From a virus: 64,000 nt of DNA. Below, piece by piece: positions 32,078 through 51,632 of the stretch; the stretch's first letter is position 1, and every line of letters begins with the position of its first letter. The translations under genes and the position numbers were made by a program. Under the pieces are notes generated by a model. The model saw only the letters and a program-made list of their open reading frames with translations, was not told where the DNA came from and did not search any database. The stretch spans positions 1,213 through 65,212 of IMG/VR virus record IMGVR_UViG_3300037847_003323; one strand, written 5' to 3'.

Positions 32078-33082
32078 ATGTTTGAATATTTTTATCACGA
32101 AATCTTAAGAAAGACTATCATTGCCTTTGGTACTCTTTTTAATGGAATTGAGATAAAACACACGGACTCTGATGACTCAGTAACAGAAGTCATCCGTGTC
32201 CCTCTTGCATACGGTCCTACCCAGAAATTTCTAGCAAGACTTGAGCAGTCGCCTAATCTGAGCAAATCAACTCAGATTTCTTTACCCAGAATGTCCTTTG
32301 AATTTGTTGGACTTCAATATGATGGGACTAGAAAGGTAACAACGACTCAAACTTTTATTACAACCGATCCTAACGATAAAACTCAAGTCAAAAAGGCATA
32401 TATGCCTGTGCCATATAACATGGCGTTTGAGATGACAATCTATACTAAATTGAATGATGACATGCTTCAGATTGTGGAGCAAATTTTGCCATATTTCCAA
32501 CCAGCATTCAACTTAACGGTTGATTTAGTTGAATCTATCGGAGAAAAGAGAGATATTCCCGTCACTATCGAGAATATCACAATGCAAGATGATTATGAAG
32601 GTGATTTCTCTACAAGGAGAGCACTGTATTACACTATTAGATTTACTGCGAAAACATACATGTTTGGACCTGTTACGACAGCAACCAAAGATCTTATCAA
32701 GAAGGTTCAGATTGGTTACGTTGCAGGTGGAGCAACACAAACTCCTACAAGAGACGTTACTTATTCTGTTACACCAAGAGCAACTCAAAATTATACTGGA
32801 GATGCTGTTACAACTCTGTCTCAAGATATCGGTGTTACTGGTAAGTATGTTGAGATGGCGGATACCTCTGGTATTGCAGATGGTAGTTACATTAACATTG
32901 ATAATGAGCAAATGTATGTACTTGAGATTACCTCAGGAACCAAGATTAAGGTTGATAGAGGTGTAGATAACACGACGGCAGAAAAACACGTTTCTGGTGC
33001 GGAAGTACACCTTATCACCGCTGCTGATAATGCACTTATTGAAATTGGCGATGACTTCGGATTTGACGGAAATCTCTTCTAA
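32078..33082 (+). CDS. 15: Tail terminator / sheath stabiliser gp15
   Basis: The start (MFEYFYHEILRKTIIAFGTL) and the middle (MTIYTKLNDDMLQIVEQILP followed by YFQPAFN) correspond closely to T4 gp15 (MFGYFY..., DDMFQIVEQILPYFQPHFN). gp15 hexamers cap the tail and join it to the neck. At 334 residues it is longer than T4 gp15 (272). The extra C-terminus (about 245-330) includes a module with YINIDNEQMYVLEITSGTKI then a DRGVDNTTAEKH segment; the same unit occurs in the gp7-like and DUF4815 proteins. Overlaps gene 16 by one base (TAATG). Confidence 0.92.
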   Translation: MFEYFYHEILRKTIIAFGTLFNGIEIKHTDSDDSVTEVIRVPLAYGPTQKFLARLEQSPNLSKSTQISLPRMSFEFVGLQYDGTRKVTTTQTFITTDPNDKTQVKKAYMPVPYNMAFEMTIYTKLNDDMLQIVEQILPYFQPAFNLTVDLVESIGEKRDIPVTIENITMQDDYEGDFSTRRALYYTIRFTAKTYMFGPVTTATKDLIKKVQIGYVAGGATQTPTRDVTYSVTPRATQNYTGDAVTTLSQDIGVTGKYVEMADTSGIADGSYINIDNEQMYVLEITSGTKIKVDRGVDNTTAEKHVSGAEVHLITAADNALIEIGDDFGFDGNLF

Positions 33083-33519
33083 TGACTACTATGAGTAAAA
33101 AATTTGATGAGTTAAATGATGCTTTTGAGGTTGAAAGCGAAGTTTTGTCTAGTGAAATTAAGAAGGTAGAAACAAATCCTTCAAATCCAAAGCATGATGA
33201 TGATATTCAGAAGGATTATGAATATACAAGAGGTAATCTTTACTCCATCATTGAGAAAGGACAGGAAGCATTGAACGGTGTCCTTGAACTTGCTCAAGAG
33301 AGTGAGATGCCTCGTGCCTATGAAGTCGCTGGGCAGTTAATTAAGAACGTTGCAGATGCAACTGATAAGTTACTTGATTTGCAGAAGAAACTGAAAGACG
33401 TAAACGAAGAAAAAGAAGTCAAAGGTCCGTCTACCGTCAACAATGCACTATTTGTAGGTTCTACCGCTGAACTTGCAAAACTCCTCAAAAATCCTCCAAC
33501 TGACAAGTTAGATAAATAA
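33082..33519 (+). CDS. 16: Small terminase subunit gp16
   Basis: At 145 residues and with a central coiled-coil (about 40-115), it fits T4 gp16. Family-like features are the DDDIQKDYEYTRGNLYSIIE segment (T4: 'DLEDDYGVVRRNMHFQQ'), SEMPRAYEVAGQLIKNVADA, and NALFVGSTAELAKLLK near the C-terminus (T4: 'ATVFMGSPTELMDEI'). gp16 recognises concatemeric DNA and regulates gp17. In T4 it lies just before 17; here it is separated from 17 by 7.4 kb of fibre and other genes. The last codons and stop overlap a GATAAATAA octamer. Confidence 0.92.
   Translation: MTTMSKKFDELNDAFEVESEVLSSEIKKVETNPSNPKHDDDIQKDYEYTRGNLYSIIEKGQEALNGVLELAQESEMPRAYEVAGQLIKNVADATDKLLDLQKKLKDVNEEKEVKGPSTVNNALFVGSTAELAKLLKNPPTDKLDK
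33511..33518 (+). promoter_or_regulatory. Late-promoter-like octamer GATAAATA
   Basis: Overlaps the final Asp-Lys codons and stop of gp16, 47 bases upstream of the 1116-aa fibre-like gene. Confidence 0.45.
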
Positions 33520-33565: not shown

Positions 33566-36500
33566 ATGACGGAAGATAGAGACAATCTGCCATCTATTAA
33601 TGATATCACCAATTCTGGTGAGGACTTACCTTCTGTAGAGGAATTTTTGGAGGAAGAGTCCCTACCATCTGTAGAAGATTTCATCGAGAAGGAAGAAGAA
33701 GAGGAAATAGAAGAAGAAGTAGTTGAGATAAACGATGCGGACGGAAAACCTTTTCTAGAGGTAATCGACATCAACTCTCTCGGACAACTTGTCCGTTTGA
33801 TTAATGATGTCAGAAAAGATATTCCTGACATCCCAGAAGTCAAGTATTACGACAACGAACTTGAGCAACTAACCGAACAGATTGCTCAATTACAAACAGA
33901 ACTGTCAGAAGCACCTGAAGTTCGCTACTACGAATCCGAAGTAGAAGCAATTTGCGAACAAATTGATTTTGTTCGACAGGAAATCAAAAATCTTCCTGAA
34001 GTCAAGTATTATGATGAGCAAGTTAATGCTATCGAAGATAGAATTGACACTCTTCAAACTGAATTAACAAATCTCCCTGAAGTAAAATATTACGATGCTG
34101 AAATCGTAGCGATTTGTGACGCTATTGATGAAGTCAAGGCATCAATCCCAACTTTCCCCAAATGGGTAAATGAAGTCAATGAAGTTCCCGACTTCTCTTG
34201 GATTGGTAAGACTTTTAGTGTCATTGATGATGATTTTATCAAAATCAATGATGTTGTTGAAAATCTTAAGACAAGATTTTCTATTGATTTTGATACACTA
34301 ACAGAAAAACTTGAAACTAAAGATTTTAACACTAATGTTAGTATTAATAGTAAAAGTGAAGAAATCAATCAGAGAATTGATGAAGAAAAGAAAAAGATTT
34401 GGAAGGAACTAAGTGATACATCTCTGAAAATTTGGGAACATCATAAGACTTTCAAGGATGATGATAAAAAGTTAAAGAAACAGATTCTTGGTGAGTATAA
34501 TAAGTTAAAACAAGAACTCACAAAGTCTATTAAAAAGACTACTGATGAAAGTGTAAAAACAGATGAGTTGCTTCTTAAGTATTTTAACGATTTAAAAGAA
34601 GAAGTTACAAGTATTCCTGAAATAAAATATTATGACGAAGATATTAAAGATGTAAAAAGTGAAATTAAAGCACTACAAAAAATTGTAGGGGAGATTAAAT
34701 TATCTCAAAAGACTTTTAATGAAGAATTAAAACAACTAAATGAAGTTGCACTTGAAGAACCTCACGATACGCCTCAAAGTGTTGGTGGAGAACAAGATCC
34801 TTTAACGCCCATCGATCAAAAGTTTGCTACTTTTAAGGATTTAAAAGAGCACTATCAAATCTTCATCAATAGAATCCAAACTCAACTTGCTGCCGTAGGT
34901 GGCGGTGGTGCTGGATTCATCAAAGATCTTGATGATGTTGATATCTCAGGATTGGAAGATGGATACATCCTTCAATATAACGCTACAGATTCAAAGTGGG
35001 AAACTGTTGAAAATTCTGGAGTGGGTGCTGGTGGAACTTGGGCAGTAACTGCTGCGGGTATTCATACAACTAAAAATGTTGGCATTGGAACAACTCAGGC
35101 AAAATCAACTGTAGCACTTTTTGTAAATGGTGATATTGAAGCACTTGGTAATGTCACTGTCGGCGGTACAATTACATATCAAGATGTAAGACATATTGAT
35201 GCTGTTGGTATTATCACAGCACAACAAGGTGTTCAAATCCTTAACAATGGTTTGAATATCATAAGTGGTATTGCAACTATTGTTGGTGCTGCTGGCACTG
35301 TAACTGTTGGTGCTGGACAAACGGCACTTTACGTTGACGGAGATGCAAGAGTCGTAGGACTTCTTACGGTTGGTAGAGCATCTGTCACTATTGATGGTGA
35401 CAATAATCAAATTACGATTGGAGATGATGTTGTCATCTCTGGTTCGCAAATCACACTTGGAGATAATATCACTCTAAGTGCAGCAGCATCTGGTATTAAC
35501 TCCGCACCTAATGTTCTGTATGTTGCGAAGGATGGTAGTGATAGCAATAATGGTACATCTATTGATAATGCATTCTTGACAATCAAAGCTGCTGTTGGCG
35601 CTGCTACATCTGGCACGACTGTCAAAGTTCTGTCTGGAAATTATGTTGAGGATAATCCAATCACACTCCCAGCATTTAGTGCTGTTGTGGGTGATGATTT
35701 GAGGACAACCAAAGTCTTACCAAACAATACAACTTCTGATATATTCCATGTTAATAAAGGGTGTAAGTTGCAGAACATGACGTTCTCTGGACACTTAGCA
35801 CCCAGTGCCGCTGTTGCATTCCCAACAGCGGGTGCAACTAACGTGGGTGGTGGTAAGTGGAAAGGTCCATACGTTCAAAACTGTACCAGTGATACCACCA
35901 CAGGAACTGGAATCAGAGTTGATGGAAACTTAGCAGTCAAAACTAAGTCCATGAACGTTGACGCATTCACTCAATACAATCAGGGTGGTGTGGGTGTTGC
36001 AGTTACTAATGAAGGTTATGCTCAGTTAGTTTCTGTATTCACCATTTGCTGCGATAAAGCAATTACATGTCATGCGGGTGGACAAGCAGATATTGCCAAT
36101 AGTAACTGCAGTTTTGGTACGTTAGGTTTGGTTGCCGATGGAAAGGGTGGTACTCAATTCATTGGAACAGTCACATCTGACGCTGCCATCTCTCAAGACA
36201 ATGTTACTTTGAATATTGGCATAGGACAAACTCGTCCTTACAATGGACAAATTGTTTTCTTCGGAGAACTATTTGAATCCGTTGATACTATTACCGTTGG
36301 TTCGGGGGGCACAGGTTATACATCAACCCCAACGGTAACTATTGATGCACCAACAGGCTCCAGTGGTGAAAATGCAACGGCGTTCGCGACACTTGAGGGA
36401 GAAAGTGTTGCATCCATTACTATCATCAGTAGTGGTTCTCAATATCAAACAACGCCAAATGTTACGATTAGTGCTCCCAACGTTGGTTCAAATGGTGCGA

Positions 36501-36916
36501 CTGCAACCGCAACCATGGCTCCGATTTACTATACAATAAATAGTTCGACACCCCCTAATGCCGGTATTACGACATTAACGCTTGATGAAAATCTTCTTAA
36601 TGCTGTTGGCACTGGATCTTCGGTTCATTTCTTCCAGCAAAGCAAGATTGTCGCAAGTTCCCATACTTTTGAATACATTGGCTCTGGAAACACTATCACA
36701 TTGGCAACACCAAAACGTGGTGGTGTTACTATCCAGGCAAATGAGGTTACAAGTTCCAATGGTGGTAAAGTAATTTACACCAGTACGGATCAGGCGGGTA
36801 ACTTTAGAGTTGGTGACGACTTACAAATCAATCAGAACACAGGCACAATTAGTGGTAGAGCATTCTCTAGAAGTCTCTTCTCAGAAATGACACCATTCAT
36901 CCTAGCACTAAGTTAA
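33566..36916 (+). CDS. Fibre-like virion protein: coiled-coil N-terminus, parallel beta-helix (1116 aa)
   Basis: The N-terminus (1-75) is strongly acidic. From residue 91 an EVKYYD-type motif recurs at 91, 118, 145 and 172, a 27-residue period, and once more at about 352, in a helical region up to about 390 (KKIWKELSDTSLKIWEHHKT). Then a linker with GGGGAGFIKDLDDVDISGL (about 446-465) leads to a 44-residue module shared with the 307-aa S74 fibre. Residues about 650-860 look like a right-handed beta-helix (VLYVAKDGSDSNNGTSIDNA, as in DUF1565/pectate-lyase-like proteins). Two GSGY-type units follow (about 910-980). The order alpha-helical stalk then beta-helix suggests a trimeric tail or neck fibre. 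Confidence 0.75.
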   Translation: MTEDRDNLPSINDITNSGEDLPSVEEFLEEESLPSVEDFIEKEEEEEIEEEVVEINDADGKPFLEVIDINSLGQLVRLINDVRKDIPDIPEVKYYDNELEQLTEQIAQLQTELSEAPEVRYYESEVEAICEQIDFVRQEIKNLPEVKYYDEQVNAIEDRIDTLQTELTNLPEVKYYDAEIVAICDAIDEVKASIPTFPKWVNEVNEVPDFSWIGKTFSVIDDDFIKINDVVENLKTRFSIDFDTLTEKLETKDFNTNVSINSKSEEINQRIDEEKKKIWKELSDTSLKIWEHHKTFKDDDKKLKKQILGEYNKLKQELTKSIKKTTDESVKTDELLLKYFNDLKEEVTSIPEIKYYDEDIKDVKSEIKALQKIVGEIKLSQKTFNEELKQLNEVALEEPHDTPQSVGGEQDPLTPIDQKFATFKDLKEHYQIFINRIQTQLAAVGGGGAGFIKDLDDVDISGLEDGYILQYNATDSKWETVENSGVGAGGTWAVTAAGIHTTKNVGIGTTQAKSTVALFVNGDIEALGNVTVGGTITYQDVRHIDAVGIITAQQGVQILNNGLNIISGIATIVGAAGTVTVGAGQTALYVDGDARVVGLLTVGRASVTIDGDNNQITIGDDVVISGSQITLGDNITLSAAASGINSAPNVLYVAKDGSDSNNGTSIDNAFLTIKAAVGAATSGTTVKVLSGNYVEDNPITLPAFSAVVGDDLRTTKVLPNNTTSDIFHVNKGCKLQNMTFSGHLAPSAAVAFPTAGATNVGGGKWKGPYVQNCTSDTTTGTGIRVDGNLAVKTKSMNVDAFTQYNQGGVGVAVTNEGYAQLVSVFTICCDKAITCHAGGQADIANSNCSFGTLGLVADGKGGTQFIGTVTSDAAISQDNVTLNIGIGQTRPYNGQIVFFGELFESVDTITVGSGGTGYTSTPTVTIDAPTGSSGENATAFATLEGESVASITIISSGSQYQTTPNVTISAPNVGSNGATATATMAPIYYTINSSTPPNAGITTLTLDENLLNAVGTGSSVHFFQQSKIVASSHTFEYIGSGNTITLATPKRGGVTIQANEVTSSNGGKVIYTSTDQAGNFRVGDDLQINQNTGTISGRAFSRSLFSEMTPFILALS

Positions 36917-39098: not shown

Positions 39099-40901
39099 AT
39101 GAAAAAGTGTCCTGCTGGACAGTATTACTGTTTTACTGACAAAAAATGTAAGAAGATTCCCATGGGATACCATGTGGGTGGAAGAGGTATGCTTGAGCCT
39201 GACGAGGAAACTTCTAAGAAAAAGAACGGTAATGGCAATGGAAATGGTAATGCTAATGGAAATGGCAATGGTGGCGGAAATGGCGGCAATGGTAACGGCG
39301 GCAATGGAGGTGGCATGGGAGAAGAAGTAGTTCATGAGGGCGGAAGTCTTCATAATTGGTTCAAAGGTTCCAAATCTAAAGACGGTAAACCAGGTTGGGT
39401 TCAATCTGATGGTTCTCCCTGTGCTAATGAACCTGGAGAAACTAAAACTCCAAAATGCTACAGTAGCAAGAGACTTGCTGCTTTAAAGAGAAAGGGTAAA
39501 AAGGGCGAAAATATTATCAAGTCTGCAGATAGACGCAAGAGAGAGAAAGATCCTGGACAACAGTCAAAATCAGGAGCAGCAAAACCTACAAATGTAAAGA
39601 CATTTGCTAAGGGTAGAAAGGACAAGAACTATGTCAAACCAGAACCAGGACTGAAAGAAACCATGGAAATTCAAGAGGCACAAAAGGATAAAAAAGGAGC
39701 AGGTAGTGGTACAAAGGATGCTTGCTATCATAAGGTGAAGTCCCGTTACAGCGTATGGCCTTCTGCATATGCATCTGGAGCACTTGTAAAATGTCGTAAG
39801 GTAGGTGCTGCTAACTGGGGTAACTCCAAAAAAGAAGAAGTGGATTATGGTATTGAGGCAATCAAAGAAAAGTTCAGAGCACAGTATGGCAAACCTGACA
39901 AGATGAGTCAGTCCTCTGAACGTAAGTCTCTTGGTAGAGGTTCTTCTATTAAAGATGGTTCTAAGAAGACTGGATATGAGTCTAAGAAAGAGTTTCGTGA
40001 TCAGTCAATGAAACTCAGAAAGCATCGTGAAAGATTTGGCGACTTAGCAAAAGAAGAAACTACCCTGGACGAGAAATGTTGGAAGGGGTATGAAAAGAAA
40101 GGTATGAAGACAATGTTTGGAAAGAGATATCCAAACTGCGTCAAGAAAACCAAGAAAGAAGAAGTAGAATTGACTACTGAAGGAAAGTATTCTAGTTCAG
40201 TCAGAGCTACCTATGGTGGAAAGACAGAAACTTTCCCCAAAGAAACTTATAAGAAAAAGTCAAAGAAGACTGCTTCTGAAGCAACAAGTTTTGATATCAA
40301 TCCTTCTGAGCACAAGAAAGCACAGAAGCAACAAAAGATTAGAAACATGACGAAATCGCCAAATGAAAATGAGGCGAATGTTGCAAAGAAAATGGCAAAA
40401 GGTCCTGAATTGGCGAATGAGGCGGTAAGAGTTCCAACAAAGACTGGTAATATTATTGCTTCAACAGTTTCCTTTAGAGGAAAGTACTACATGTTGAAGA
40501 TGTTCTTTCCACAAGTAATTAAACCTACAAGAACAGAAGTTCAGGCACAGGTTGAGAAAGTTTATCCTGGCGCAAGATTGGCATCTTATATGGTTAGTGA
40601 TTACAAACCAGGAGAACCTGTTTTTCACACTGAAGATTGGCAAAAAGTAAACCGTAAAGATAAGACTGACGGTTTGAGTCAGAAGGCAGTTGATGCTTAT
40701 CGTAGAGAGAATCCAGGTTCTAAATTGAAGACTGCTGTTACTAAGAAACCTTCTGAACTTAAGAAGGGTTCAAAAGATGCAAACCGTCGTAAGTCTTTTT
40801 GTTCCAGAATGAAAGGAATGAAAAAGAGACTGACTTCTGCTAAAACTGCAAGAGATCCAGACAGCAGAATCAATAAAGCCCTTAGACGTTGGAATTGCTG
40901 A
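39099..40901 (+). CDS. Basic mosaic protein with several small Cys-containing domains (600 aa)
   Basis: A very basic protein made of short domains joined by low-complexity linkers. Residues 1-20 hold CPAGQYYCFTDKKC; 43-74 is an NGNGNG linker; 81-135 has GGSLHNWFKGSKSKDGKPGW, then a CANE...PKCYSSKR pair. At about 209-240 is CYHKVKSRYSVWPSAYASGA followed by LVKCRKVG, like DUF5872. At 323-350 is LDEKCWKGYEKKGMKTMFGK. Around 443-512 is a more globular region (TVSFRGKYYMLKMFFPQ). The last 34 residues (FCSRMKGMKKRLTSAKTARD) look like DUF6321. Some linkers carry I/L-x-E (IQE near 191-193, LDE at 323-325), the cleavage type of T4 prohead protease. I infer a DNA-binding or internal head protein. Gene 17 starts seven bases after it. 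Confidence 0.7.
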   Translation: MKKCPAGQYYCFTDKKCKKIPMGYHVGGRGMLEPDEETSKKKNGNGNGNGNANGNGNGGGNGGNGNGGNGGGMGEEVVHEGGSLHNWFKGSKSKDGKPGWVQSDGSPCANEPGETKTPKCYSSKRLAALKRKGKKGENIIKSADRRKREKDPGQQSKSGAAKPTNVKTFAKGRKDKNYVKPEPGLKETMEIQEAQKDKKGAGSGTKDACYHKVKSRYSVWPSAYASGALVKCRKVGAANWGNSKKEEVDYGIEAIKEKFRAQYGKPDKMSQSSERKSLGRGSSIKDGSKKTGYESKKEFRDQSMKLRKHRERFGDLAKEETTLDEKCWKGYEKKGMKTMFGKRYPNCVKKTKKEEVELTTEGKYSSSVRATYGGKTETFPKETYKKKSKKTASEATSFDINPSEHKKAQKQQKIRNMTKSPNENEANVAKKMAKGPELANEAVRVPTKTGNIIASTVSFRGKYYMLKMFFPQVIKPTRTEVQAQVEKVYPGARLASYMVSDYKPGEPVFHTEDWQKVNRKDKTDGLSQKAVDAYRRENPGSKLKTAVTKKPSELKKGSKDANRRKSFCSRMKGMKKRLTSAKTARDPDSRINKALRRWNC

Positions 40902-40908
40902 GTAAGTT

Positions 40909-42567
40909 ATGAGTGATAATGTATATCTTGGCAATCCCAATCTAAAAAAGGCGAATACTGCCATTGAATTTACTGAGGAACAAGTCATTGAATTCCTCAG
41001 ATGTAAGGAAGATCCTGTTTACTTTGCAAATAACTACGTTAAGATTGTTTCGCTGGACGAAGGACTTACGCAGTTTCATCCATATCACTTTCAAGAGAAG
41101 TTAATTAATAACTTCCACAATAACAGATTTAATATCTGTAAGATGCCAAGACAGACTGGTAAATCCACTACAGTGGTATCTTACCTTTTGCATTATGCTG
41201 TATTCAATGACAGTGTAAACATTGGCATTCTTGCAAACAAAGCAGCAACCGCAAGAGAACTTCTTGGAAGGTTACAGACTGCATACGAGAACTTACCAAA
41301 ATGGATGCAACAGGGTATCATATCATGGAACAAAGGATCATTGGAGTTAGAGAATGGCAGTAAGATATTGGCAGCTTCTACGTCTGCAAGTGCTGTCCGA
41401 GGCATGTCGTTTAACGTTCTCTTCCTCGACGAGTTCGCCTTCGTTCCAAACCATGTTGCAGACTCGTTCTTTGCCTCTGTTTATCCTACTATTACTTCTG
41501 GTAAAAACACCAAAGTAATTATTGTATCCACTCCACACGGTATGAATCACTTCTACCGTATGTGGCATGATGCAGAAAAAGAGAAGAATGAATATATTCC
41601 AACTGATGTTCACTGGAGTGAAGTTCCAGGACGTGATGAGAAGTGGAAAGCAACCACAATTAAAAACACATCTGAAGCACAGTTCAAGGTTGAGTTTGAG
41701 TGTGAGTTCCTTGGTTCTGTTGATACACTAATCGCTCCCAGTAAATTACGTTCTCTTATCTACGAAAACCCAATCAAGAGAAATGCTGGATTGGATATCT
41801 ATGAGCAACCTCAAGACAAACATGATTATGTAATGACGGTTGATGTGGCGAGAGGTGTTGGCGAAGACTACTCAGCATTTGTAATCGTAGATATTACAGA
41901 ATTTCCGCATAAGGTTGTTGGAAAGTATAGAAATAATGATATTAAACCTATGCTATTCCCAAACATTATCTACGAATTAGCAAAGAGTTACAATAGCGCA
42001 TATATTTTATGCGAAGTAAATGATATTGGAGATCAGGTTGCAAGTATTCTTCAATATGATTTGGAGTATCAAAATTTATTGATGTGTTCTATGAGAGGTA
42101 GAGCAGGACAAATTGTTGGACAAGGATTCTCTGGTAAGAAGACACAGTTAGGTGTCAAGATGTCTAAAACCGTTAAGAAGGTTGGTTCTCTGAACTTAAA
42201 GACTCTAATTGAAGAAAACAAACTTCTCTTCACAGACTATGAGATTATCTCAGAGTTGACAACCTTTATCTCAAAACACAACTCATTTGAGGCAGAGGAA
42301 GGGTGCAATGATGACTTGGCAATGTGTCTCGTCATCTATGCTTGGTTAGTTCAAATGGACTATTTCAAGGAACTTACCGATCAGGATGTTCGTAAGAGAT
42401 TGTATGAAGAGCAAAAGAATCAGATTGAACAGGACATGGCACCTTTTGGATTCTTAGATGATGGATTAGGAGATAGTAGTTTTGTTGAAGATGGAGATAG
42501 ATGGTATAACGCATCTGAATATGGAAATACTGCAGGCGGTATGGATTATATGTGGAACTATAGGTAA
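40909..42567 (+). CDS. 17: Large terminase subunit gp17 (ATPase and nuclease)
   Basis: At 552 residues. The ATPase domain has Walker A MPRQTGKST (Lys85) and Walker B VLFLDE (Asp174, Glu175). The nuclease domain has catalytic acids Asp312 (MTVDVARGVGEDYSAFVIVD), Glu369 (CEVNDIGDQ) and Asp468/469 (GCNDDLAMCLVI). The 57-residue spacing of the first two acids equals that of T4 gp17. It docks on the gp20 portal, pumps DNA into the prohead and cuts the concatemer. Domain layout complete. The stop overlaps the following start (TAATGG). Confidence 0.96.
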   Translation: MSDNVYLGNPNLKKANTAIEFTEEQVIEFLRCKEDPVYFANNYVKIVSLDEGLTQFHPYHFQEKLINNFHNNRFNICKMPRQTGKSTTVVSYLLHYAVFNDSVNIGILANKAATARELLGRLQTAYENLPKWMQQGIISWNKGSLELENGSKILAASTSASAVRGMSFNVLFLDEFAFVPNHVADSFFASVYPTITSGKNTKVIIVSTPHGMNHFYRMWHDAEKEKNEYIPTDVHWSEVPGRDEKWKATTIKNTSEAQFKVEFECEFLGSVDTLIAPSKLRSLIYENPIKRNAGLDIYEQPQDKHDYVMTVDVARGVGEDYSAFVIVDITEFPHKVVGKYRNNDIKPMLFPNIIYELAKSYNSAYILCEVNDIGDQVASILQYDLEYQNLLMCSMRGRAGQIVGQGFSGKKTQLGVKMSKTVKKVGSLNLKTLIEENKLLFTDYEIISELTTFISKHNSFEAEEGCNDDLAMCLVIYAWLVQMDYFKELTDQDVRKRLYEEQKNQIEQDMAPFGFLDDGLGDSSFVEDGDRWYNASEYGNTAGGMDYMWNYR

Positions 42568-47745: not shown

Positions 47746-48309
47746 ATGGCGCATAAACCGATTGGTGCAGGAACAAGTATTGCGACTACAGGCACGTCTG
47801 CAAAGACGGGTGCAATTAATGTTACATCGAGTGTATTGAGAATTACTGCTCTCAATACTGATGCATATGTTGCTGTTGGTGGAGATCCTACAGCATCCTT
47901 AAGTGATTATGTTATTCCTGCTGGAACTTCTGCTGGTATCGGTGTCACTAAGGCATCCCAAAGAGTTGTTGGAATTACAACTGGTACAACAACTATTGTT
48001 ACCTGTCCAGAAGGAACCCAAATGCCATTTGGTGTTGGTGAATTTGTAACCCTTCAAGCAAGCGGAATCAGTGATGCCCAATATACCACTGATTTGGCAC
48101 ACGTTGCTGTTGCTTCCGTTGACACTACTTCTGGTGTAGATGGATTCCATCAAACTAGAGTAACACTAACTGCAAATACTTCAGGAATTATTACTGACTT
48201 CAGTGCAACTGATGCACGATTGATTTCCTCCGTCAAAGTCGCTGCCATTTCCTATGGTACTGGCGGTTCTATTCATGTTCAACCCGTTCAAACCACAGGA
48301 ATTGCCTAA
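47746..48309 (+). CDS. Beta-rich virion protein between core and protease genes (187 aa)
   Basis: The 187-residue sequence is almost entirely Thr/Ser/Gly/Val/Ala with many beta-strands (GTSIATTGTSAKTGAINVTS; VYVAVGGDPTA-like region 'TDAYVAVGGDPTASLSDYVI'). 'VAVGGDPTA...YVIPAGTS' fits the jelly-roll or sandwich pattern of small phage capsid-decorating proteins, as does its location among the head genes. It replaces T4 gene 68 in position but is not similar in composition. Probably a head decoration or accessory capsid protein. It ends one base before gene 21. Confidence 0.7.
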   Translation: MAHKPIGAGTSIATTGTSAKTGAINVTSSVLRITALNTDAYVAVGGDPTASLSDYVIPAGTSAGIGVTKASQRVVGITTGTTTIVTCPEGTQMPFGVGEFVTLQASGISDAQYTTDLAHVAVASVDTTSGVDGFHQTRVTLTANTSGIITDFSATDARLISSVKVAAISYGTGGSIHVQPVQTTGIA

Positions 48310-48310
48310 A

Positions 48311-48961
48311 ATGAAACTCATTAGAGAAGAAATCGAAACAGTAGAGTTTCTTGTCGAGCAAAAGAACGGCAAGAAATCCATGTATATTGAAGGCGTATTC
48401 CTTCAGGGTAACATCAAAAACCGTAATGGTAGAATGTACCCTATGGAGACTCTTCGTAAGGAAGTTTCTCGTTACAATGAAAATCATGTCCAAGCAGGCA
48501 GAGCACTTGGTGAACTCGGACATCCTGACGGTCCTACCGTCAACTTAGACAGAGTTTCACATAAAATTGTTTCTCTGAAAGAAAGTGGTTCCAACTTTGT
48601 TGGAAAAGCAAAACTTCTGAATACACCCATGGGTAAGATTGCATCTTCTCTTATTGAAGAAGGTGTAAAACTCGGAGTGTCTTCTAGAGGTATTGGTTCT
48701 CTGAAGATGACGAAAGAGGGAATCAATGTTGTCGGTGACGACTTCATGTTAGCAACTGCTGCTGATATTGTTGCCGATCCTTCTGCCCCTGATGCTTTTG
48801 TTGAAGGCATTATGGAAGGTAAGGATTGGGTATGGGATGGAGGCATTCTTCGTGAGAAGTATGTCGAAAAAACATACAAAGAAATTAACACATTAGTTAC
48901 CCAGAAACAACTGGATGAGAAGAAGTTGGACTTGTTCAATTCCTTTCTCAATAACCTTTGA
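48311..48961 (+). CDS. 21: Prohead core protease gp21
   Basis: I choose ATG 48311, one base after the upstream stop, since the earlier in-frame start at 48254 would lie in the previous gene. At 216 residues it matches T4 gp21 (212). The catalytic His is His71 in ELGHPDGPTVNLDRVSH and the nucleophile is Ser124 or Ser125 in LGVSSRGIGSL, at the spacing known for the T4-type (S80) prohead proteases. It cleaves core and capsid proteins after I/L-x-E sites during maturation. KNRNGRMYPMETLRKEVSRY is a family-typical N-terminal motif. Confidence 0.93.
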   Translation: MKLIREEIETVEFLVEQKNGKKSMYIEGVFLQGNIKNRNGRMYPMETLRKEVSRYNENHVQAGRALGELGHPDGPTVNLDRVSHKIVSLKESGSNFVGKAKLLNTPMGKIASSLIEEGVKLGVSSRGIGSLKMTKEGINVVGDDFMLATAADIVADPSAPDAFVEGIMEGKDWVWDGGILREKYVEKTYKEINTLVTQKQLDEKKLDLFNSFLNNL

Positions 48962-50210: not shown

Positions 50211-51632
50211 ATGTTCCAATCTGAGCATCTGCAGGAAAAGTGGGCACCTCTCCTCAACTATGAGGGACTCGATCCTATTAAGGATTCCCACAGAAAGGCA
50301 GTTACTGCCGTCCTGCTCGAAAACCAAGAAAAATTCATGCGTGAGCAGTCTGCCTTCAACGAAGGTGGAATGCTTATGGAAACCCCCACCAACGCTGCTA
50401 ACGCTGCTGGTGCTGAAGGTGGTTTCGGTGGCGGTTCCGCTGCTGCTGGTCCTACCGCTGGTTTCGACCCCGTTCTGATTTCCTTAATCAGACGCTCCAT
50501 GCCTAACCTGATCGCATACGATCTGGCTGGAGTTCAACCAATGAGCGGTCCTACTGGACTCATCTTCGCAATGCGTTCCCGCTATCAGAATCAGAGCGGT
50601 TCGGAAACCTTCTATGATGAAGTCGATTCCGCATTCTCTGGACAGGACTTCGGACGCGATCAAGAAGGCGGCTTCACCGATGGTGCAGCTGGTATGGGTA
50701 CAACCAGTCAGTCTGGTTCCAACCCCGCTGTCCTGAACCCAACTGGTACTGCATCCTCCATCGGTTACAACGTTGGACAAGGGATGGTAACTGGTGATGC
50801 TGAGAACCTGAACACAGGTGCTAATGCATTCAACCAGATGGCGTTCTCTATCGAGAAAGTCACCGTTACCGCTAAGTCCAGAGCACTCAAAGCTGAGTAC
50901 TCCTTGGAACTGGCACAGGATCTGAAGGCAATCCACGGATTGAACGCTGAAGCAGAACTCGCTAACATCCTTAGCACTGAGATTCTTGCTGAAATCAACC
51001 GTGAAGTCATCAGAACCATCTACAAGGTTGCTGAGCAAGGTGCTGTACAAAACACCGCTACCGCTGGCGTCTTCGACTTAGACGTTGACTCTAACGGCAG
51101 ATGGAGTGTTGAGAAGTTCAAGGGACTCCTGTTCCAAATCGAGAGAGATGCGAACGCTATCGCACAAAGAACTCGTAGAGGAAAGGGCAACATCATCCTG
51201 TGTTCCGCAGACGTAGCATCTGCACTCACCATGGCTGGTGTTCTGGATTACACCCCTGCACTCAACGCTAACCTCACCGTCGATGACACTGGTAACACCT
51301 TCGCAGGTGTCCTGCAAGGTAAGTACAGAGTCTACATCGATCCTTATGCTGCTAACCTGACTTCTGGCAACGGAACTCCTGGTAACCAGTATTACGTCGT
51401 CGGTTATAAGGGTACTTCTCCTTATGACGCTGGTATCTTCTACTGCCCATACGTTCCTCTTCAGATGGTTCGTGCAGTTGGAGAGAACTCCTTCCAGCCC
51501 AAGATTGGCTTCAAGACTCGTTACGGTCTTGTTGCTAACCCATTCGCTGAAGGAACCAACCAGGGACTCGGCGCTCTGCACATCAACGCAAACCGTTACT
51601 ACAGACGAGTTGCTGTTAAGAACCTCATGTGA
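50211..51632 (+). CDS. 23: Major capsid protein gp23
   Basis: The 473-residue protein begins QSEHLQEKWAPLLNYEGLDP with DSHRKAVTAVLLENQEKFMR, characteristic of cyanophage gp23, followed by SLIRRSMPNLIAYDLAGVQP and MSGPTGLIFAMRSRYQNQSG, the HK97-fold capsid region. KRTRRGKGN-type P-domain (QRTRRGKGNIILCSADVASA) and 'YYVVGYKGTSPYDAGIFYCP' near the C-terminus are diagnostic. The first 65 or so residues are likely removed by gp21 during maturation, as in T4. GTAAAG precedes the start. The gene ends at a strong intrinsic terminator. Confidence 0.97.
   Translation: MFQSEHLQEKWAPLLNYEGLDPIKDSHRKAVTAVLLENQEKFMREQSAFNEGGMLMETPTNAANAAGAEGGFGGGSAAAGPTAGFDPVLISLIRRSMPNLIAYDLAGVQPMSGPTGLIFAMRSRYQNQSGSETFYDEVDSAFSGQDFGRDQEGGFTDGAAGMGTTSQSGSNPAVLNPTGTASSIGYNVGQGMVTGDAENLNTGANAFNQMAFSIEKVTVTAKSRALKAEYSLELAQDLKAIHGLNAEAELANILSTEILAEINREVIRTIYKVAEQGAVQNTATAGVFDLDVDSNGRWSVEKFKGLLFQIERDANAIAQRTRRGKGNIILCSADVASALTMAGVLDYTPALNANLTVDDTGNTFAGVLQGKYRVYIDPYAANLTSGNGTPGNQYYVVGYKGTSPYDAGIFYCPYVPLQMVRAVGENSFQPKIGFKTRYGLVANPFAEGTNQGLGALHINANRYYRRVAVKNLM

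Follow-up and report, generated by a model that had tools for sequence, protein, structure and literature searches.

A putative gp21-processed, head-internal polyprotein encoded upstream of gene 17 in a T4-like cyanophage

Introduction

The internal proteins IPI-III and Alt of bacteriophage T4 are head proteins (the IPs are basic) that carry a short N-terminal targeting sequence and are cut by the prohead protease gp21 after L/I-x-E (PMC9026906). The capsid-targeting sequence consists of ten residues; residues 4 and 7 are responsible for targeting, residues 8 and 10 for processing (PMC9026906). Each of these proteins is the product of one gene and receives one or two terminal cuts. From the prohead core proteins gp22, gp67 and gp68, gp21 generates several fragments each (PMC9026906). 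The ejection (inner body) proteins of phiKZ and SPN3US are also located in the inner head, and a gp21-like protease cleaves them after x-x-E (PMC5694885); these are large proteins from which a long N-terminal propeptide is processed.

The ocean holds abundant T4-like cyanophages. These phages are published to lack T4 alt, gp67 and gp68 (for gp67 and gp68, PMC2984593). The gp15-gp18 region of their genomes is a published hypervariable spot (PMC2984593), and mosaic proteins of the family T4-GC 119 (Sullivan et al. 2010), equivalent to PHROG 727, are encoded there. The family is already known and is uncharacterised; a search of the literature library found no published mechanism for it. The member described here differs from IPI-III and Alt in that several modules are chained in one protein with a predicted cleavage site before most of them, and in that the protein lacks a targeting N-terminus of its own. 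It would resemble gp22, gp67 and gp68 in being cut into several fragments, and it differs from the phiKZ and SPN3US proteins in being a chain of mini-domains.

The mosaic gene and its family

The window is the whole 64,000-nucleotide stretch of DNA that was analysed, and it belongs to a 93 kb virus record; gp16, the mosaic with its modules and sites, gene 17, gp21 and gp23 lie on the plus strand. Its late genes are ordered as in a T4-like cyanophage: gp16 (small terminase), the mosaic open reading frame, gene 17 (large terminase, 40909-42567, aligned to annotated gp17), then gp21 (prohead protease, which presumably processes the mosaic, 48254-48961), gp22, and gp23 (major capsid protein, 50211-51632). 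An earlier note on this DNA had described a highly basic protein of 600 residues directly before the large terminase, and this description is accurate. The frame is intact at 39099-40901, a gap of 7 bases separates it from the start of gene 17, and the 600 aa product has a pI of 9.94, 23% K+R (17% Lys) and 11 Cys. Identity with the small terminase (TerS) is ruled out: gp16 has its own gene at 33082-33519, and the mosaic has no TerS family match.

The protein matches PHROG 727 at 5.2e-93 (the PHROG matches are all of unknown function) and the annotated GC119 members of S-SM2 and P-SSM2 by tblastn. This significant sequence match, together with its position in the gp15-gp17 region, places it in T4-GC 119 / PHROG 727. 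The window copy shares sequence, position and architecture with the family and differs by an additional block, B4. Relatives of some part of the mosaic occur in 508 phage records (tblastn), nearly all of Synechococcus or Prochlorococcus phages. The small modules that the earlier note called orphan minidomains are thus small but not orphan, recurring in several hundred cyanophages and some podophages.

Modular structure of the protein

Seven recurrent blocks, B1-B7, were defined with module profile HMMs, and five of them have Cys pairs or more, in agreement with the "at least five" short Cys-containing blocks claimed previously. B1 (residues 1-38, 39099-39212, CPAGQYYCFTDKKCKKIPMGYHV) has three Cys and is predicted to be beta-structured (pLDDT 83-91). 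It is followed at about residues 43-73 (39225-39317) by a Gly/Asn run of the kind described in the earlier note, predicted to be disordered (pLDDT 31-44). B2 (residues 81-180, 39339-39638) carries the motif W..GWV..C.....PKC and is predicted by AlphaFold2 to be helical in part. B3 (residues 197-248, 39687-39842) contains the near-invariant sequence KDACY..KSRYSVWPSAYASGALVKCRKVGAANWGN, exists elsewhere as a separate gene, and forms three short helices when modelled alone with AlphaFold2 (pLDDT 83-87). B4 (residues 249-318, 39843-40052) is present in a minority of relatives. B5 (residues 320-353, 40056-40157, CWKGYEKKGMKTMFGKRYPNC) is a predicted beta hairpin, B6 (residues 442-512, 40422-40634) has a predicted beta-beta-alpha-beta fold, and B7 (residues 513-600, 40635-40898) corresponds to DUF6321. 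In the AlphaFold2 model, confident small domains (B1, part of B2, B5, B6 and B7) are separated by disordered linkers.

One of the two domain names proposed in the earlier note stands. DUF6321 (PF19846) matches residues 520-598 at 1.3e-14 and 55 bits (61 bits for the module alone), above the curated Pfam cutoff of 28.5 bits, and is the only above-threshold match in a Pfam search of the protein; no fibre or baseplate domain is found with Pfam or PHROG. The assignment of B3 (the SAYAS block) to DUF5872 (PF19197) was rejected: its 15.1 bits, and the best score of 17.1 bits among relatives, lie below the 27.5-bit cutoff and are at most suggestive. The whole protein has no match among the sequences of solved structures, and DUF6321 finds HMG-D only, at a nonsignificant E of 0.35. 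Fold searches with B6 gave middling matches to ribosomal L18Ae/LX-like proteins, phi29 p6 and phi29 p56 (Z up to 5.8), none with a Foldseek E below 0.08, and these matches were not used for function.

Candidate protease sites ahead of the modules

Candidate processing sites near the N-terminus of gp23 in four of these phages (FLAE|A, FLSE|A, MIAE|Q and MLME|T, the window's own being MLME|TPTNA) match the L/I-x-E at which T4 gp21 cuts (PMC9026906). The earlier note had pointed to I/L-x-E sites in the linkers of the mosaic. Such sites are present, but in the window protein alone they are not in excess over chance (4 sites versus 2.3 expected, p=0.19), and the signal appears when relatives are compared. 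Among non-redundant instances from divergent relatives, an [ILVM]xE is found no more than 15 residues ahead of the module core at 66 of 78 module starts (85%), versus 101 of 400 linker windows that do not adjoin a module start (Fisher p=4e-23). Short E-rich linkers push up the background of this motif; with the comparison confined to windows with at least two E, the counts are 55/66 versus 75/177 (p=8e-9). In a shuffle test the motif precedes modules in 69 of 80 cases (31.2 expected, z 9.8), and no enrichment is seen when E is replaced by D, K, R, G, S, A, N, Q or T.

Three junctions of the window protein have the [ILVM]xE form: Glu80 of VHE|G before B2 (39336-39338), Glu193 of IQE|A before B3 (39675-39677) and Glu325 of LDE|K at the start of the B5 core (40071-40073), which is invariant in alignment A3. 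IQE193 and LDE325 are of the L/I-x-E type cut in the T4 internal proteins, and all three are predicted prohead-protease sites. Three other junctions (TTE361, ANE441 and HTE512) are non-canonical here and canonical in many relatives; before B6, where the window has Glu441 of ANE|A (40419-40421), relatives have VSE|A, MTE|A, VDE|A or IEE|A. Sequences found at module starts of relatives include VSE|EGLRDWF, IDE|AGSLHHW, EIQE|AQKDKKG, DIEE|GKKDACY, LDE|KCWKGY, MTE|AVRVP and VSE|GAAWT.

The distance from the E to the module ranges from 0 to 12 residues, and this variation argues against a fixed structural part. The spacing of [LI]DE ahead of B5 is mostly fixed, and this motif may be inherited; the junction motif in general could likewise be inherited along with the modules and not selected. 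A weaker motif excess is also present downstream of modules (z 3.4), which counts against cleavage. It is thus conceivable, if unlikely, that the mosaic is an uncut DNA-binding protein inside the head, condensing or charge-neutralising, whose modules are beads on one chain and whose xE motifs are remnants of linkers inherited through gene fusions. The protein is basic throughout, its linkers are predicted to be disordered, and the chance-level frequency of [IL]xE in the window copy and its three non-canonical junctions agree with an uncut chain. An E-specific motif placed at variable spacing before most modules of divergent relatives, in a genome that also encodes gp21, speaks instead for cleavage.

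Module shuffling among relatives

Comparison of domain order among related phages, proposed as a check in the earlier note, was carried out by profile searches of 80 IMG/VR loci and several isolates, and modules proved to be duplicated, lost and re-ordered. The common order is B1-B2-B3-(B4)-B5-B6-B7. B5 is duplicated in some relatives, and B1, B4 or B6 may be lost. P-SSM2 has the order B2-B5-B3-B7, three loci (L003, L004 and L006) place B5 between B6 and B7, and the N-terminal B1 is swapped in some relatives for other modules (e.g., DUF5661).

Free-standing modules and capsid-targeted sibling genes

Several modules also occur as genes of their own; podophages have B3 or DUF6321 in this free form, at 47-95 aa. 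Several marine contigs encode B3 as an independent gene of about 47-70 aa, often starting right after an x-x-E; the 47 aa B3-like gene of Roseobacter phage CRP-7 (L155:2980-3123), an unrelated phage, has no x-x-E site. DUF6321 is a stand-alone gene of 83-95 aa in Pelagibacter podophages and in Prochlorococcus phage P-SCSP1c, in the latter between the capsid and tail-tube genes. T7-type phages are not known to encode a gp21-like protease, so the module units would be made separately there. Such free units fit a mosaic that is predicted to be cut into units of the same kind. A host origin of B3 was considered and rejected: its 15 genome-scan matches all fall in metagenome-assembled genomes, several are flanked by phage genes, and none is a clear host gene.

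The position of the mosaic directly upstream of gene 17 here, and of the free B3-like gene of CRP-7 two genes upstream of the large terminase, would suit a packaging accessory (e.g., a terminase cofactor) that is made together with gene 17 and ends up in particles. Such a role is improbable, given that gp16 is a separate gene, that many genes separate the mosaic from gene 17 in S-SM1 and S-P4, and that in podophages DUF6321 is encoded next to the capsid gene or has small genes unrelated to packaging as neighbours.

B6 occurs in many relatives as a gene of about 105 aa adjoining the mosaic and starting MK[SNT]F..F[LIM][SK]ES, and the fused and separate forms are not mutually exclusive. B7 is a separate gene in S-SZBM1, starting MKTFKQYITEA. 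In sequence, these N-termini (MKxFxxFLSE|S type) resemble the T4 capsid-targeting sequence and are of the same kind as those of IPI-III and Alt. Long ORFs totalling 470,000 aa contain the targeting pattern nowhere in their interior. One relative of the mosaic (L079) has such a start, MKNFKEFIEEAS. The window mosaic opens at once with B1 (MKKCPAGQYYC) and lacks a capsid-targeting N-terminus, which counts against a head-internal polyprotein; the pattern occurs in no window ORF. The S-SCSM1 B6 protein with a capsid-targeting N-terminus is annotated as hypothetical only.

An NMNAT/cytidylyltransferase (GC190 type) served as a check of whether the targeting signature predicts packaging. It has a T4-like targeting N-terminus in 6/6 cyanophage genomes checked, including the record to which the window belongs, and has repeatedly been detected in virions (PMC3037559, PMC9602691, PMC9146016, PMC10665884). 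A common N-terminal targeting sequence would account for the entry of this metabolic enzyme into particles. The enzyme starts MRSFFSFLYE|AESQ both in the window's record, outside the window (G000:C1:82212, plus strand), and at L095:2212-3492.

Beside the mosaic homolog of S-CREM2, ORF136 (L154:2302-3015) encodes a basic protein of 237 aa that starts MQTFSMFFSEDAG. It was detected in virions by mass spectrometry with 8 peptides (PMC10665884) and is a candidate internal head protein.

Presence in virions

The presence of the mosaic family in mature virions is well supported through orthologs, by published proteomes and annotation, and the earlier proposal that the protein is packaged is upheld to that extent. 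The direct case is S-CREM2 ORF137, a mosaic relative carrying B6 and DUF6321, which is listed in the virion proteome of that phage (PMC10665884 Table 3; 4 unique peptides, coverage 4.1%). The S-SCSM1 ortholog is annotated "virion protein". For S-SM1 the evidence is an annotation in S-SM2, where GC119 is among exactly 18 CDS noted as "similar to Synechococcus phage S-SM1 protein". This set includes gp4, gp14, gp21, gp25, gp53, GC15 and GC190, each of which the published proteome reports from S-SM1 virions, and replication genes are missing from it; the GenBank note thus appears to mark virion proteins. The split genes 191 and 192 of S-SZBM1 are absent from the S-SZBM1 mass spectrometry table. 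S-SZBM1_190 was rejected as a detected ortholog, as its sequence lacks the modules.

The genes of mosaic relatives have tail-fibre and neck genes as neighbours in the interval from gp16 to gp17, and annotations read only "structural protein" or "virion protein", so that a structural protein of the tail, baseplate or neck with no role inside the head has to be weighed. The strongly basic composition of the mosaic, the lack of any fibre or baseplate domain in the Pfam and PHROG searches and the occurrence of its modules behind capsid-targeting N-termini make this quite unlikely, and a location in the head interior is likely.

Proposed processing and function

The mosaic is best explained as a head-internal polyprotein that gp21 cuts into several small basic proteins, a reading to which we assign a probability of roughly 0.6. 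The polyprotein claim of the earlier note is therefore strongly suggested by the junction sites and the capsid-targeted single-gene modules, with cleavage itself a prediction from sequence. Modules B1-B7, which are small, basic and for the most part contain Cys, are chained through linkers predicted to be disordered, and this chain would be built into the prohead core. Cleavage by gp21 would follow, behind the Glu of the [I/L/V/M]-x-E sites that closely precede modules. The predicted pieces span approximately residues 1-80, 81-193, 194-325, 326-441, 442-512 and 513-600. These small basic proteins would stay in the head and, judging from their charge alone, may bind the packaged DNA; by analogy with the T4 internal proteins they may enter the host with it. 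Their role may lie in DNA binding or early host takeover; for the DNA condensation or action on the host proposed in the earlier note, the basic charge and the analogy with the internal proteins speak. The core peptides of T4 mostly exit the head, which counts against this reading; whereas gp22, gp67 and gp68 are core or scaffold proteins, the mosaic pieces would be conserved folded modules.

The mosaic would thus be a new variation on the T4 internal-protein theme. At about even odds, T4-like cyanophages more generally have a modular internal polyprotein, in which small injected-protein genes are fused, prohead-protease sites serve as joints, modules are swappable cassettes, and each copy of a single virion-targeted chain brings several small proteins into the host. 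From the junction rule follow predictions of the short proteins present in the head and of the positions of their termini; if true, the rule would offer a first molecular explanation of a "hypothetical structural protein" that is conserved.

Additional observations

In one contig (L142:1181-5417), an NMNAT-like gene starting MLVRELYE|AEK is followed by a free B3 gene and then by a mosaic of 761 aa. This mosaic joins B5, B1 and B2 with ParB-like and 5'-nucleotidase-like domains; enzymes too may be carried in such mosaics. A contig titled as a WOR-3 chromosome (L150:2782-4005) encodes a basic mosaic of 408 aa that combines a B3-like block with one reading W..PCGR...YPSCRPT. Within the window, the large fibre-like protein at 33566-36916 opens with an acidic repeat, LPSVEEFLEEES / LPSVEDFIEKEE.
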